A stretch of 64,000 nt of DNA. Origin: Leptospiraceae bacterium. Lineage in GTDB: Bacteria; Spirochaetota; Leptospiria; Turneriellales; Turneriellaceae. Where the stretch lies: positions 372,001 through 436,000 of the forward strand of contig JANWWS010000013.1 of NCBI GenBank assembly GCA_025055765.1, in the 5' to 3' direction. This document shows positions 33,728-38,988 of this stretch, in pieces; the stretch's first letter is position 1; every line of letters begins with the position of its first letter. The translations under genes and the position numbers were made by a program. The notes beneath the pieces were generated by a model that made no database searches, was not told the DNA's origin, and saw only the letters and a list, made by a program, of their open reading frames with translations.

Positions 33728-34147
33728 TCAAGCAGATGCCCTTCTTTGGGCACTCATGACCATAATACAACTGCCATCGGCCAAATAATGTTTGCCTGAC
33801 TTTTCTAAGATTTCGATAATCTCAGGGCTTTCCGCTCCAGGTTGAAACCAAAAATTATCTAGATTTAGCTTGAGCCCTTCTTCTAAGGTAAGTTTCCCTA
33901 GCTTGGGAGGAAGTACAAAATTGACAATATCTACTTTTTCTGGTAGTGAGCTGAGGTTGGCATATGCAGGAATTCCATCGATGGTCTTCGCCCGTGGATT
34001 TACAGGATAAACCCTATATCCCTTACCTAAAAGATGGTGCAAAATAATATTGCCATACTTTGACTTATCATTAGTTGCTCCCACTAAAGCTATTTTGCAA
34101 TTATTTTTTCCAAGCAGCGCGCGGAAATAGTCATGTTCGCTACCCAT
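33728..34147 (-). CDS. CoA-binding domain protein (YccU-like)
   Basis: A 139-residue single Rossmann-type CoA_binding_2 domain. IALVGATNDKSKYGNIILHHLLGKGYRVYPVNPRAKTIDGIPAY, VDIVNFVLPPKL and NFWFQPGAESPEI are the family segments (normally W-x-Q-x-G-x-x-S/N). The conserved Cys near the end appears in ADGSCIMV. Proteins of this family bind CoA or its derivatives; the biological role is not settled. The ATG shares one base with the fliM stop, and panE begins immediately after. Confidence 0.92.
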   Translation of the reverse strand: MGSEHDYFRALLGKNNCKIALVGATNDKSKYGNIILHHLLGKGYRVYPVNPRAKTIDGIPAYANLSSLPEKVDIVNFVLPPKLGKLTLEEGLKLNLDNFWFQPGAESPEIIEILEKSGKHYLADGSCIMVMSAQRRASA

Positions 34148-35172
34148 TAATATTCCTCCTGGGAACGATTGGTAATTAAGAACTCATCAGGTACATCGTG
34201 TATAGGCTCCCCTATTTGTACAGCAAGGTAGGAGCCCACCCTCCCAGGACGGCATTTAAATTTTGGCCTATCTTCGATCTTAAAAATAAAATCATCCCGA
34301 ACATTTAGATTTCCCAACTTAATTACGCTCCCCACCTGAAGCTGCATTATATCCGCGAAACTTAGAGTTACCTGACCAACTTCCACAGATATTTCTACTT
34401 GAACTTGCTCTAGTCTACTGGAAATCATGCTCTTGTTAATTTCAGACTCACCCCTGCGAATGGAGGAAAACCAATATTGAGCTGATAGTTTAGCAATAAT
34501 TGGTTCAATAGTAATGTAGGGGATACAGAGATTCATCATGCCCTCATTTTCCCCTATTTTAGTTTCTAGTGTAATTAACATCACCATCTCGTTAGGTGGC
34601 ACTATTTGAGCAAACTGTGGATTTGTTTCGATGTTGCCAAGGCGTGGTCTTAAATCAATGACCTGGGCCCAAGCCTCCCTTAAGTTACTTAATATATGCA
34701 CAATGACCCCTTCAATAACGGACATTTCTATGTCCGTTAACTCCCTGTTTAGTTTAGCATGCTCGCCCGAACCGCCAAAGAGACGATCTATAATAGTGAA
34801 AGTAATACTGGGATCTATTTCAAGAATCGCAGAACCCTTAAGGGGATCCATGTTAATAATGGAAATCGTAGTGGGATTGGGTATTGATCTAATGAATTCC
34901 TCATAGGTTAGCTGATCCACCGCCGTGACATGGACACCCACCATAGCTCTTAGCTTAGCGGAAAGTGCTGTGGTCGTAAGTCGGGCAAAAGTCTCATGCA
35001 TCATCTGCACGGTTCTTATTTGATCTTTTGAAAATTTGTCAGGGCGGCGAAAGTCGTATATTTTGACCTTTTTTTGCTCGGCCGGCGAAACAAAATCTTC
35101 CGGGGATACCTCCCCGGTACTCATCGCCGCTAATAGGTTATCAATATCTTCCTGAGATAACTGCTCCGTCAT
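34147..35172 (-). CDS. fliM: Flagellar motor switch protein FliM
   Basis: A 341-residue FliM. The N-terminal MTEQLSQEDIDNLLAAM (LSQEDIDNLL at 5-14) is the motif that in FliM docks phosphorylated CheY. The middle domain carries LSAKLRAMVGVHVTAVDQLTYEEFIRSIPNPT, GSAILEIDPSITFTIIDRLFGG and NPQFAQIVPPNEMVMLITLETKIG. The C-terminal SpoA domain (about 260-330) has VEVGQVTLSFADIMQLQVGSVIKL. It forms the C-ring of the periplasmic flagellar motor and sets rotation direction. No fliN, fliL or mot genes are adjacent; it sits in a mixed operon between a hypothetical exported protein and metabolic genes. Confidence 0.97.
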   Translation of the reverse strand: MTEQLSQEDIDNLLAAMSTGEVSPEDFVSPAEQKKVKIYDFRRPDKFSKDQIRTVQMMHETFARLTTTALSAKLRAMVGVHVTAVDQLTYEEFIRSIPNPTTISIINMDPLKGSAILEIDPSITFTIIDRLFGGSGEHAKLNRELTDIEMSVIEGVIVHILSNLREAWAQVIDLRPRLGNIETNPQFAQIVPPNEMVMLITLETKIGENEGMMNLCIPYITIEPIIAKLSAQYWFSSIRRGESEINKSMISSRLEQVQVEISVEVGQVTLSFADIMQLQVGSVIKLGNLNVRDDFIFKIEDRPKFKCRPGRVGSYLAVQIGEPIHDVPDEFLITNRSQEEY

Positions 35173-35176
35173 AGTC

Positions 35177-36181
35177 TTACCTCAGAAGCTGGGTTTCAAT
35201 ACCGGTGACCTGCCAGAAGTTATCTTGCTTTGTCAAATAATAAGTATAATAAAATTCTCGACGAAAGCCCTCTATTTCTCGTTGGGCTTTAACCTTAACC
35301 TTAGCTCTTATCCCATCACTTTCCGTATCGCTAAGCACTTCAAAGCGGATGAGACGGTGGTTTTTCGAAGAGGCAAGAAAATCGCGAAAATTTTGCAAGA
35401 CCCGAGTTTTTTGTTCGGCATCTGCCTTGTAGTAAGCCTGCGCAAAATCTGGGTAATCTGCTATGAGATCTCGAAGAGAGAGGTATTTGAGATAGTTTTT
35501 CCAATCCTTATGATATTCTGCATTGAGAACCAGAAATACCACTTCTTGTGGTGTTAAGCTTAAAGGTACTTCTTCGATGCGTGGTTTTTTAGGGGTAGCC
35601 AAGGAAGGCGAAACAGGGTCAAAAAACAAAACCAACTCATTTTCGGAAAGCAGGAACACTTGCGGTGCCTGTTCTGGGTTAACGTAAAAATAAGCCTTTA
35701 AGCCTAGCTTCTTTATATCACTTGGTATATCCACGAATTCATCGAGATAGAGAACTTTTTCATAACTTTCACCGGGTTGTAGAACAAGGGCCCTTGAAAG
35801 ATGGTTTGTGGCGGTATAGCTCATAAAATAGGCATCTGGGTACTTTGGTCGTCGAGCGTAATATTCTGGGTTTTTTATGGGTAAACTTTTACCATCATCT
35901 CTTGTGGCTACAAAAGAGAAATTCTGAGCAATATTCTGGTGCAAATAAAAAGTGATAGGATAGAAGCCCTCGTTGGTAATCCGAACCGTTATGGGAATTT
36001 TCTCCCCCATAGTAAACCGACTCTTATGGCTTGCTAAGCGGAGCTTGGCGCCACGGGATGAATAGTTTTCGGTTAAGTTCCCCCTTTCGTCAATCTTGGG
36101 AAAGCCACGCTCCGATGTCACCGCGCCAAAAAGGTAACTAAAAGTAAGAAGCATGAGCGTCAGCATCCCAACAAAGCTCAT
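35177..36181 (-). CDS. Hypothetical exported protein with Ig-like and NTF2-like parts
   Basis: A 334-residue protein with a signal peptide (MSFVGMLTLMLLTFSYLFGAVTS). Residues about 45-175 read like a beta-sandwich: KLRLASHKSRFTMGEKIPITVRITNEGFYPITFYLHQ and LVLQPGESYEKVLYLDEF, similar in style to BsuPI-type intracellular inhibitor domains. The last 120 residues (EVVFLVLNAEYHKDWKNYLKY, then REFYYTYYLTKQDNFWQVTGIE) resemble an NTF2-like fold. The function is unknown. It lies four bases upstream of fliM, so a motor-related role is possible but not shown. Confidence 0.65.
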   Translation of the reverse strand: MSFVGMLTLMLLTFSYLFGAVTSERGFPKIDERGNLTENYSSRGAKLRLASHKSRFTMGEKIPITVRITNEGFYPITFYLHQNIAQNFSFVATRDDGKSLPIKNPEYYARRPKYPDAYFMSYTATNHLSRALVLQPGESYEKVLYLDEFVDIPSDIKKLGLKAYFYVNPEQAPQVFLLSENELVLFFDPVSPSLATPKKPRIEEVPLSLTPQEVVFLVLNAEYHKDWKNYLKYLSLRDLIADYPDFAQAYYKADAEQKTRVLQNFRDFLASSKNHRLIRFEVLSDTESDGIRAKVKVKAQREIEGFRREFYYTYYLTKQDNFWQVTGIETQLLR

Positions 36182-36214: not shown

Positions 36215-37708
36215 CTAAAAATCAAAAAGATGCGTTATATGAGGTATGGGATCCCTTGGCCGGCAAAAATAATGGCATCTCACAAGCGGGGCCATTTCCT
36301 GCCGCTCATAAAGCTCGTGGATAGCCGACTGTATCTTATGTGTCTCAACAAAGGCCTGGTCAGCATCCCAGCCCTTTTTTAAAAAGAAGAAGCTGCCAGG
36401 TAGGTATTCTTGAAAAAAATCACTACGAGCCATATAGCTCTCAATAATTTTGCGCGCTTGACTACAAATTAGCTCCACCTCTGCCTTACCAAATAGAGAT
36501 TCAAGTCTCTCCAGGTTTACAATTCGGATAACAGCACCACAGTAAAATTCCTCTTTTTCCCGCAGGGCCTCTTCAAATTGGGCTAGCTTATCTCGCACCA
36601 GTTCTAACCATGATGCATTTTCATATCTTTCCCTCATCTCGAGGCTTAGAGAGATAGCAAGCCAATGCTCGAGTATACCCTGCAAGAAATAGCGGTCATC
36701 GCCTAAAAGTCGTTCCTTTACTTGCAGCAGAAAAAAGAAACCATAAAGTTCACCTTTAAAATATAATGGCAAAATTTCGGCAACCTCATGCAGAGATTGT
36801 GCGAAAAGAAAGGATTCTAACTTCCGCCACAAACTATTATGAACTCCTCTTTCCACAAGGCTCCACTTCTTAAGAGATCCCAATTCTTGAATAAGCGGAT
36901 CATCCCAATAAAGAAACTTGGCCACCATCTTGCCAAGAGAATCTGACATAACTACGGGACGAAAAAGCGATCCTTCCCTGCGATACAACAAGTAATCCAC
37001 AAGACCAAAATCCCGGGTAAGCAAAAGGTGCAACCTTTGATCTAACTCCTCCTTTGTCTGAACTTGAGAAAAAAAAGCTACGGTTTCGTTAAAGAGTGCC
37101 TGTCTTTGGGTACGCCTTTCATTTAATTCCCATTTCTCTTGTAAATTTCGGTAAATTTGGCTAAAGTAGAGATAAATGCCAGCACAGGCAGATAGTAACT
37201 CAAGAAACAATTTTTCTTCTGGAGAAATATGAGCTTTACTTAGGCGCAAAAGCAAAAACCCCTTGAGTTCTGTTAAGACCATAGCGGGGATCGCAAGATC
37301 CCGGGAAAAAGGCTCCAAAGAGAATTTTTCCTCCTCGGGTAAACTAGGCAATACTTCCCCTACCAGAAAGAGCCGAGCTTTTTGCTGTAACACCTTAGCA
37401 AACACCCTTCCGGGAAAAACAGTGTTAGGAGCTAGCTGGTAGCCATTTACATATCTTAGGTAAAAGGTATCCTTTTCTTGAGCATACATCGCAAGCGATA
37501 TAGAACCGAGATAGGCAGTGATACCTAAAAATAGAGCACGGTAGATTTTCTCATCACTGTCACAAAACGATAGCTCTCTATAGAGATCAAAGATAGCTTG
37601 ATAGGCCTCTTCTCTTGACCCGAGCGGCAAATTGCCTGGCAAGTTTGAGTTTCTCTCTATTCTGCTCTCTCCCCCCAGGCTTTGGGCCGCCTTTCTTTGC
37701 AAAGACAT
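36215..37708 (-). CDS. GAF-domain protein with a degenerate GGDEF-like C-terminus
   Basis: A 497-residue cytosolic protein. Two GAF-like regions (about 40-185 and 205-355) show LFLGITAYLGSISLAMYAQEKD and LLLTRDFGLVDYLLYRREG as sensory-domain starts. The last 125 residues look like a cyclase fold (YCGAVIRIVNLERLESLFGK), but the expected GGDEF sequence is replaced by EYLPGSFFFLKKG, so no cyclase activity is expected. It may sense a ligand and act through protein contacts. It lies two bases after the acidic repeat gene and upstream of fliM. Confidence 0.6.
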   Translation of the reverse strand: MSLQRKAAQSLGGESRIERNSNLPGNLPLGSREEAYQAIFDLYRELSFCDSDEKIYRALFLGITAYLGSISLAMYAQEKDTFYLRYVNGYQLAPNTVFPGRVFAKVLQQKARLFLVGEVLPSLPEEEKFSLEPFSRDLAIPAMVLTELKGFLLLRLSKAHISPEEKLFLELLSACAGIYLYFSQIYRNLQEKWELNERRTQRQALFNETVAFFSQVQTKEELDQRLHLLLTRDFGLVDYLLYRREGSLFRPVVMSDSLGKMVAKFLYWDDPLIQELGSLKKWSLVERGVHNSLWRKLESFLFAQSLHEVAEILPLYFKGELYGFFFLLQVKERLLGDDRYFLQGILEHWLAISLSLEMRERYENASWLELVRDKLAQFEEALREKEEFYCGAVIRIVNLERLESLFGKAEVELICSQARKIIESYMARSDFFQEYLPGSFFFLKKGWDADQAFVETHKIQSAIHELYERQEMAPLVRCHYFCRPRDPIPHITHLFDF

Positions 37709-37710
37709 TT

Positions 37711-38988
37711 TTAAAGATCAAGAGATTCCATGACTTTCTGGTAGAGTTGGTAGTATTCTGACTGGGCAAAGCGAATGATAACCTCATCAGGTAATTCACC
37801 AAGCAAATTATCTAAGTAGGCAATCATCTTGCGCAACTCTTCCCGATCGGGCATTTTACCCTCGGCCTTTTCTAATAGGCGCTCTTCTCGCCCTTCTTTG
37901 GCTTCCAGGTCCCGCTTATCGAGATTCTCTGTAATGGTAAACGGCTCCTCCCCTTTTTCCTCAACCTCTTGCTCCCTTTCTTGAGCTAACTCAGGCTCCG
38001 CATCTTCCACAATGCCACCCAGTTCTTCTTCGCTGAGAGTCACTGGTTCCTCATCTGTTGCGGCAAAGAAATCTTCTTGGCTTTCGCTCACCCCCGCCTC
38101 AGCTAGAGATGAAAAAGGTTCCGTGGGTGCTTCCTCGCCAATCTCAGCATCTTCTAAAATTCCCTCTAATTCTTCCTGGGAGAGAGTAATTTCCCCCTCT
38201 TCCTCCTGCGCCATCTCCCCCAGCTCATCTTGAACCGTCGTGGGGGGCTCTACACCTATTTCGGCGGGACTTTCCAGTTCTGGTGCACTATCTTGCAAAA
38301 TATTATCCATTTCTTCCGAGGATAAAGTAATCGGCTCCTCCGTTTCCTCTGCAAAGAAATCCCCTGAGTTGACAGGTATACCTTCACTCTCTTGTTCCTC
38401 TACGGCTACATCGCCTAAAATTCCCTCCATTTCTTCTGCGGAAAGAGTAACCGGCTCTTCACTGTCTTCAAAAAAATCCCCTGCTTGTGTTTCCGTCTCT
38501 TCTAGTTTTGGCACTTCCTGGTCCTCAGCGGGGGGTGTCTCAGGAACGGAGAGAAGATCGAGTTCTTCATCACTAAAGAGAAGGTCTTCTTCCTGCTCCC
38601 CAGTGAAAAATTCCTCCTTGCTTGGGGCACCTGCCATTGCCTCCTCGAAGGACTGCTCTATTGGTTTCTCTTCCGCTATCCCGCTTTCTTCGGGGAGTGA
38701 TTGTTCCTCGAGAGAAGGAGGGGGACCAAGGAGCTCCTCGATGTCCTCAAGTTCAGGCTCCTCCGCAGGCATCTCCTCCGATAGAAGAATTTCTTTAGCC
38801 AAGTCTTCCTGCGTATCTCCTCCTAGCTTACCCTGAGCCAGGTCCAAATCTAATTCCTCAAGAGAAGGAGGTTCTGGTAAGGAAGGGTTATCTTCGAGCA
38901 CAAGAGTATCCTCTCCCAGCGGAGCCTCTTCGGGTAAGGGGGGGATATCTCCTAGATCAAGCTCGTTGTCGGGCAAAGTATTAGCCAT
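37711..38988 (-). CDS. Acidic repeat protein with five FliM-N-like LSxEExxxIL motifs
   Basis: A 425-residue protein that is extremely rich in Glu, Asp, Pro and Ser and very likely disordered over residues 1-370. A motif recurs five times: FSDEELDLL (138), TLSAEEMEGIL (181), TLSSEEMDNIL (221), TLSQEELEGIL (268) and TLSEEELGGIV (317). Three copies are preceded by a DFF-E-EEP module. The motif is close to the FliM N-terminal LSQEDIDNLL. The C-terminal 45 residues (ELRKMIAYLDNLLGELPDE, IIRFAQSEYYQLYQKVM) form a compact helical domain that I recall from other spirochaete proteins. It lies in the same gene run as fliM. Function unknown; see findings. Confidence 0.75.
   Translation of the reverse strand: MANTLPDNELDLGDIPPLPEEAPLGEDTLVLEDNPSLPEPPSLEELDLDLAQGKLGGDTQEDLAKEILLSEEMPAEEPELEDIEELLGPPPSLEEQSLPEESGIAEEKPIEQSFEEAMAGAPSKEEFFTGEQEEDLLFSDEELDLLSVPETPPAEDQEVPKLEETETQAGDFFEDSEEPVTLSAEEMEGILGDVAVEEQESEGIPVNSGDFFAEETEEPITLSSEEMDNILQDSAPELESPAEIGVEPPTTVQDELGEMAQEEEGEITLSQEELEGILEDAEIGEEAPTEPFSSLAEAGVSESQEDFFAATDEEPVTLSEEELGGIVEDAEPELAQEREQEVEEKGEEPFTITENLDKRDLEAKEGREERLLEKAEGKMPDREELRKMIAYLDNLLGELPDEVIIRFAQSEYYQLYQKVMESLDL

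Follow-up and report, generated by a model that had tools for sequence, protein, structure and literature searches.

Spirochaetes encode an uncurated family of acidic scaffold proteins (no Pfam or NCBIfam entry matches it) in which one to about thirteen docking-type peptides are kept under selection within a drifting acidic tether capped by a small, conserved helical domain, the scaffold being encoded beside a partner gene, within a few bases of it in most loci. The copy described here lies in a window of 64,000 nucleotides, by which we mean the whole stretch of DNA analyzed, from a Leptospiraceae bacterium (GenBank assembly GCA_025055765.1, contig JANWWS010000013.1, positions 372,001 to 436,000); its features are collected in Table 1. 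We tentatively favor the reading that the scaffold is a cytoplasmic, mostly disordered motility adaptor whose peptide would be read by a flagellum-side protein, with FlhG as the best single candidate. Few phylum-specific factors are known for the placing and coordination of periplasmic flagella at the two spirochaete poles. A nearly single-copy gene pair, phylum-wide but not universal, carrying a docking-type peptide short enough for synthesis and pull-down, is a concrete and testable entry point, for which natural motif losses in non-flagellated relatives supply a comparative control.

Table 1. Coordinates, within the window, of the scaffold gene, its repeats and the neighboring genes.
Feature	Position	Strand	Support or remark
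Repeat-bearing acidic scaffold protein, 425 aa	37711..38988	-	ORF; relatives in 17/18 genomes of the order
Repeat 1, FSDEELDLLS	38548..38577	-	Residue 138; degenerate
Repeat 2, LSAEEMEGIL	38416..38445	-	Residue 182
Repeat 3, LSSEEMDNIL	38296..38325	-	Residue 222; nearest of the window repeats to FliM-N
Repeat 4, LSQEELEGIL	38155..38184	-	Residue 269; has the Q of FliM at +2
Repeat 5, LSEEELGGIV	38008..38037	-	Residue 318
Conserved C-terminal helical domain, ~48 aa (ELRKMIAYLDNLLGELPDEVIIRFAQSEYYQLYQKVMESLDL)	37714..37857	-	Alignments A1, A2, A5
Partner gene; starts with helix MSLQRKA, predicted GAF-GAF-degenerate GGDEF	36215..37708	-	AF2, Foldseek
Conserved protein (cluster c7) between partner and fliM	35177..36181	-	Only in fliM-linked loci, n=10
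fliM	34147..35172	-	PF02154 E=7.5e-82, TIGR01397
FliM N-terminal docking peptide LSQEDIDNLL	35131..35160	-	ORF translation; FliM-N profile

The original prediction, made from the DNA letters and their translations, described five repeats of the form LSxEExxxIL in the scaffold protein at 38008-38577. These coordinates proved exact and the repeats are real, the first copy being degenerate: 20,000 composition-preserving shuffles of the protein gave a mean of 0.024 matches and a maximum of 2, and none held at least five. Successive repeats start 44, 40, 47 and 49 residues apart and belong to a longer unit, DFF-x-acidic-EPITLSxEE, in a protein that is 32% D+E and of low sequence complexity outside its C-terminal domain. 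No Pfam or NCBIfam family matched the scaffold protein, and the literature searched yielded nothing on the locus or on a spirochaete motif that binds CheY.

Across the family, the consensus of the peptide reads [DE]E[PT]I[AT]L[ST]xDEL[DN][NG]I[LA], and the 78 repeats from the window's order follow D-[ED]-[EG]-P-I-[AT]-L-S-x-[DE]-E-L-[DE]-[GN]-I-[LA], frequently preceded by FF at a distance of 8-12 residues. Computed from these 78 repeats and 26 motifs of other spirochaetes, the core from -5 to +9 mostly holds 2-4 bits per position, the weakest being +2, versus 0.3-1.0 bits in the linkers; for the repeats of the window's order, linker positions are mostly at 0.5-1 bit. Repeats are thus conserved in orthologues while linkers drift, which was a check proposed in the original prediction, so that selection acts on the motif and low-complexity noise does not account for it. 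At the DNA level, the pattern for the bare 10-mer gives a genome-wide total above control, with single hits arising by chance, so that one motif alone proves nothing. Most Leptospirae relatives carry 3-13 copies, those of Leptospirales having many, whereas Spirochaetales and Treponema-type scaffolds usually have one, in the form GFFxDDDxDETIALTGDELNNILITADFTEE; in Spirochaetales, TADFTEE is conserved downstream of the motif and FF upstream. In the flagellated families L121, L135, L137 and L138, the canonical motif is missing or altered and the domain is retained. The family can be recognized by the C-terminal domain of ~48 residues, one or more copies of E[PT]I[AT]L[ST]xDELxNI and a downstream partner starting MGLxxKA; in the window copy, each of these features is present as a variant (EPVTLSAEEMEGIL; MSLQRKA as the partner start).

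Regarding the C-terminal domain, it is common to all scaffold relatives of the window's order, and its profile matches 267 of the 393 Spirochaetota genomes, with one copy in nearly all; carriers include G071 (one contig, 1,139,633 bp) and G168 (2,843,201 bp). A scan of named genomes matched only spirochaete or spirochaete-like MAGs, and no relative was found in the viral contigs scanned. The genus Leptospira proper was recognized neither among these named matches nor in the genome set analyzed. AF2 predicts three main helices (pLDDT 82.7), for which Pfam, NCBIfam and the PDB, the latter searched by sequence and by fold, returned nothing credible. FliM without a detected scaffold characterizes the Borrelia-like genomes (f38) and nearly every Brachyspira-like genome (f14); as these are flagellated, the scaffold is not essential for flagella.

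Downstream of the scaffold gene, in most loci only a few bases away and across families, lies the partner gene; the 2-bp gap of the window and an MxLxxKA start are conserved at this place. Its start, M[GS]Lxx[KR]A, was found in 39 of 52 loci versus 1 of 772 other ORFs (the element was noted in the window, 36215-37708, and in L101, L102, L104, L125 and L126), and is kept even where the rest of the partner differs, as in the Treponema type. In several Leptospirae partners, the element occurs 3-5 times (GLLQRAERLRE and similar), making it a second repeated short motif of the same gene pair. The original prediction had placed a GAF-domain protein between the scaffold and FliM; this is borne out by predicted fold, though not by Pfam, which gave no match for the window copy: the AF2 model (pLDDT 83.7) is GAF-GAF-GGDEF-like, and its Foldseek matches are GAF proteins and diguanylate cyclases. 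Since GG[DE]EF is kept in none of 33 partner homologues, diguanylate cyclase activity seems unlikely. One partner protein, at L102:7096-9336, has a scaffold-type motif of its own, EDESITLTAEELADL.

The wider neighborhood varies between lineages. In the window, FliM is encoded by the third gene downstream of the scaffold gene and begins MTEQLSQEDIDNLL, which confirms its announced position and N-terminal docking peptide. fliM adjoins the scaffold gene in 10 loci, all of the window's order, and was not seen beside it in the sampled regions of the Turneriella-like genus g6. Linkage to fliM was thus rejected as a general rule; its conservation across spirochaetes, by which the original prediction was to be judged, is limited to one order, a result that goes partly against it. 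Elsewhere, fliS precedes the scaffold gene (f19, f29 and f36), and in many Treponema-type loci the scaffold gene adjoins a DivIC-family gene. Many Treponema-type loci also have two MptE-like genes behind the scaffold gene, which we take to be, probably, flagellin glycosyltransferases. In Leptospirales, it is preceded by genes read as an ATP synthase operon.

The repeat was compared with the N-terminal peptide of FliM (FliM-N). Among 31 spirochaetes, this N-terminus is almost invariant (LSQDEIDQLL), with Q at +2, I at +5 and L at +8 in 31/31. The scaffold repeats match FliM at these positions in 1/139 (Q), 1/139 (I) and 4/139 (L) cases, and at all three in 0/139; they do not conform to LSQ[DE][DE]IDxLL, the identity of the FliM-N or EIDAL peptide. 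As the 139 repeats were gathered with a pattern permitting I at +5 and L at +8, this contrast was not made by the pattern. Among the ORFs of the window, the FliM-N profile ranks FliM first and the window repeats second and third; it singles out these repeats with p=0.0015, versus p of about 0.03-0.4 for most single-motif relatives. Judged by sequence, the repeat resembles FliM-N in pattern but appears to have a specificity of its own, and its identification with the CheY-P-binding peptide is not supported, given the Q/I/L mismatch and the weak profile scores of single-motif relatives. Like the EIDAL peptide of FliM or FliY, it would be a short acidic amphipathic helix on a flexible tether (L-S-x-[DE]-[DE]-hydrophobic-[DE]-x-hydrophobic-hydrophobic). 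Unlike it, the scaffold peptide is internal and repeated, with longer conserved flanks, no C-ring domains, and D/G/A, L and I in place of Q+2, I+5 and L+8. The EIDAL peptide of FliM is a docking site for CheY (PMC6946799), and the N-termini of FliM or FliY also bind FlhG (PMC11236974, PMC12327844, PMC12826062), so that CheY-P was never the sole candidate reader.

Co-occurrence gives a second line of evidence. FliM is present in 254 of the 267 scaffold carriers and CheA in most of them. In G362 and G371, which have neither FliM nor FlhA, and in G237, which has FlhA and no detected FliM, the domain is kept and the canonical motif is absent; G371 still has FVSPEELEGLL, and the loss there is therefore not clean. 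G362 retains CheW-type proteins without FliM, and G094 and G103, with FliM, a single CheW and no detected CheA, keep the motif. These cases lean toward a reader on the flagellum side over CheY-P, but they are few, and absence of CheA or FliM could reflect gaps in draft assemblies. As to the switching-motor mechanism originally proposed, its flagellar association is plausible (fliM in 10 loci, fliS elsewhere, FliM in nearly all carriers), whereas its CheY-P identity is not supported. Since the non-flagellated G362 and G371 keep both domain and protein, part of the scaffold function is not flagellar; in these two (L141 and L142), the scaffold is a short version with the C-terminal domain kept. 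FlhF was discarded as a co-occurrence marker, as it matches nearly all genomes through SRP GTPase homology and does not discriminate.

In the adaptor reading that we favor, the scaffold and its partner would form a complex, the C-terminal domain anchoring a disordered tether that presents the docking helices. Several peptide copies would raise the local concentration at the pole or at the switch, where the reader would be a protein on the flagellum side that recognizes the N-terminus of FliM or FliY as well, FlhG, a MinD-type ATPase, being the best single candidate. The partner, which in the window and in Leptospirae is predicted to be a GAF-GAF-degenerate GGDEF sensor-like protein, may supply condition sensing and thereby make docking condition-dependent. 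The conserved core, the scaffold-partner adjacency across families, the three flagellar contexts (fliM, fliS and MptE-like genes), FliM in 254 of 267 carriers, the absence of the canonical motif from G362, G371 and G237, the retained motif of G094 and G103 and the binding of FlhG to the N-termini of FliM or FliY count for this reading; the flagellated genomes without detected scaffold, the four flagellated families without canonical motif, the persistence of the protein in the non-flagellated G362 and G371 and the position of Leptospirales loci behind genes read as an ATP synthase operon count against it. In its full form, which we hold with more reserve, the pair would be a two-protein spirochaete motility module, made of a disordered motif scaffold and a GAF/degenerate-GGDEF partner, in which a spirochaete-specific variant of the FliM peptide, multiplied in Leptospirae, recruits the C-ring or an FlhG-type regulator to periplasmic flagella, so that motor assembly or switching answers an intracellular signal. 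If true, such a module would be previously undescribed.

The strongest alternative, which we consider rather unlikely, is that the peptide docks a partner unrelated to the readers of FliM-N, for instance a protein of the cell pole or of cell division, the GAF/GGDEF partner or, as a form of self-inhibition, the C-terminal domain of the scaffold itself, the likeness to FliM being a convergence of short amphipathic helices. Departure from FliM-N at invariant positions, survival of the domain beyond flagella in G362 and G371, the DivIC-family neighbor and the scaffold-type motif inside the L102 partner all agree with it, but the missing motif of FliM-negative relatives, together with the three flagellar gene contexts, speaks for a connection with flagella. 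Less probable again is the initial proposal of a CheY-P buffer, decoy or scaffold, in which the repeats would imitate FliM-N and so offer phosphorylated CheY several docking sites. The pattern L-S-x-[DE]-E-[LM]-[DE]-x-I-L is indeed like LSQDEIDQLL, the profile ranks the window repeats just behind FliM and most carriers have CheA; against this stand the systematic departures at Q, I and L, the conserved flanks absent from FliM (FF upstream; TADFTEE downstream in Spirochaetales), the intact motif of the CheA-negative G094 and G103, and the presence of CheW-type proteins in G362, which yet has no canonical motif. Finally, low-complexity resemblance, named at the outset as the main alternative and suggested by the acidic, low-complexity composition, is already refuted for practical purposes by the shuffles and by a core deeply conserved versus drifting linkers in diverse spirochaete families.

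Several known systems offer comparison. CheZ, whose C-terminal peptide binds CheY, is a non-motor protein with a CheY-docking peptide; the scaffold has no CheZ domain (Pfam, NCBIfam), and its peptide is multivalent and not terminal. The acidic polar landmarks HubP/FimV are, like the scaffold, large multivalent scaffolds, serving the FlhF/FlhG system; the scaffold differs by having no membrane or LysM region (Pfam) and a small C-terminal domain without PDB fold match. ChePep, which is repeat-rich, and CheO are phylum-restricted chemotaxis or motor accessory proteins, as the scaffold would be; they belong to another phylum, Campylobacterota. CheO binds CheA, CheZ, FliM and FliY (PMC11237671, PMC9665402).

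Outside the canonical peptide, some scaffolds carry further conserved segments. In families f9 and f27 (L256, L257, L259 and L262), the motif lies near the N-terminus and a second variant, EVVT[VIL][ST]GEEL, near the C-terminal domain. Several Spirochaetales scaffolds (L106, L127, L143 and other Spirochaetales-type loci) have a conserved N-terminal GVWVK stretch and, upstream of the motif, a short coiled-coil-like segment, ASELxSIKxEL.
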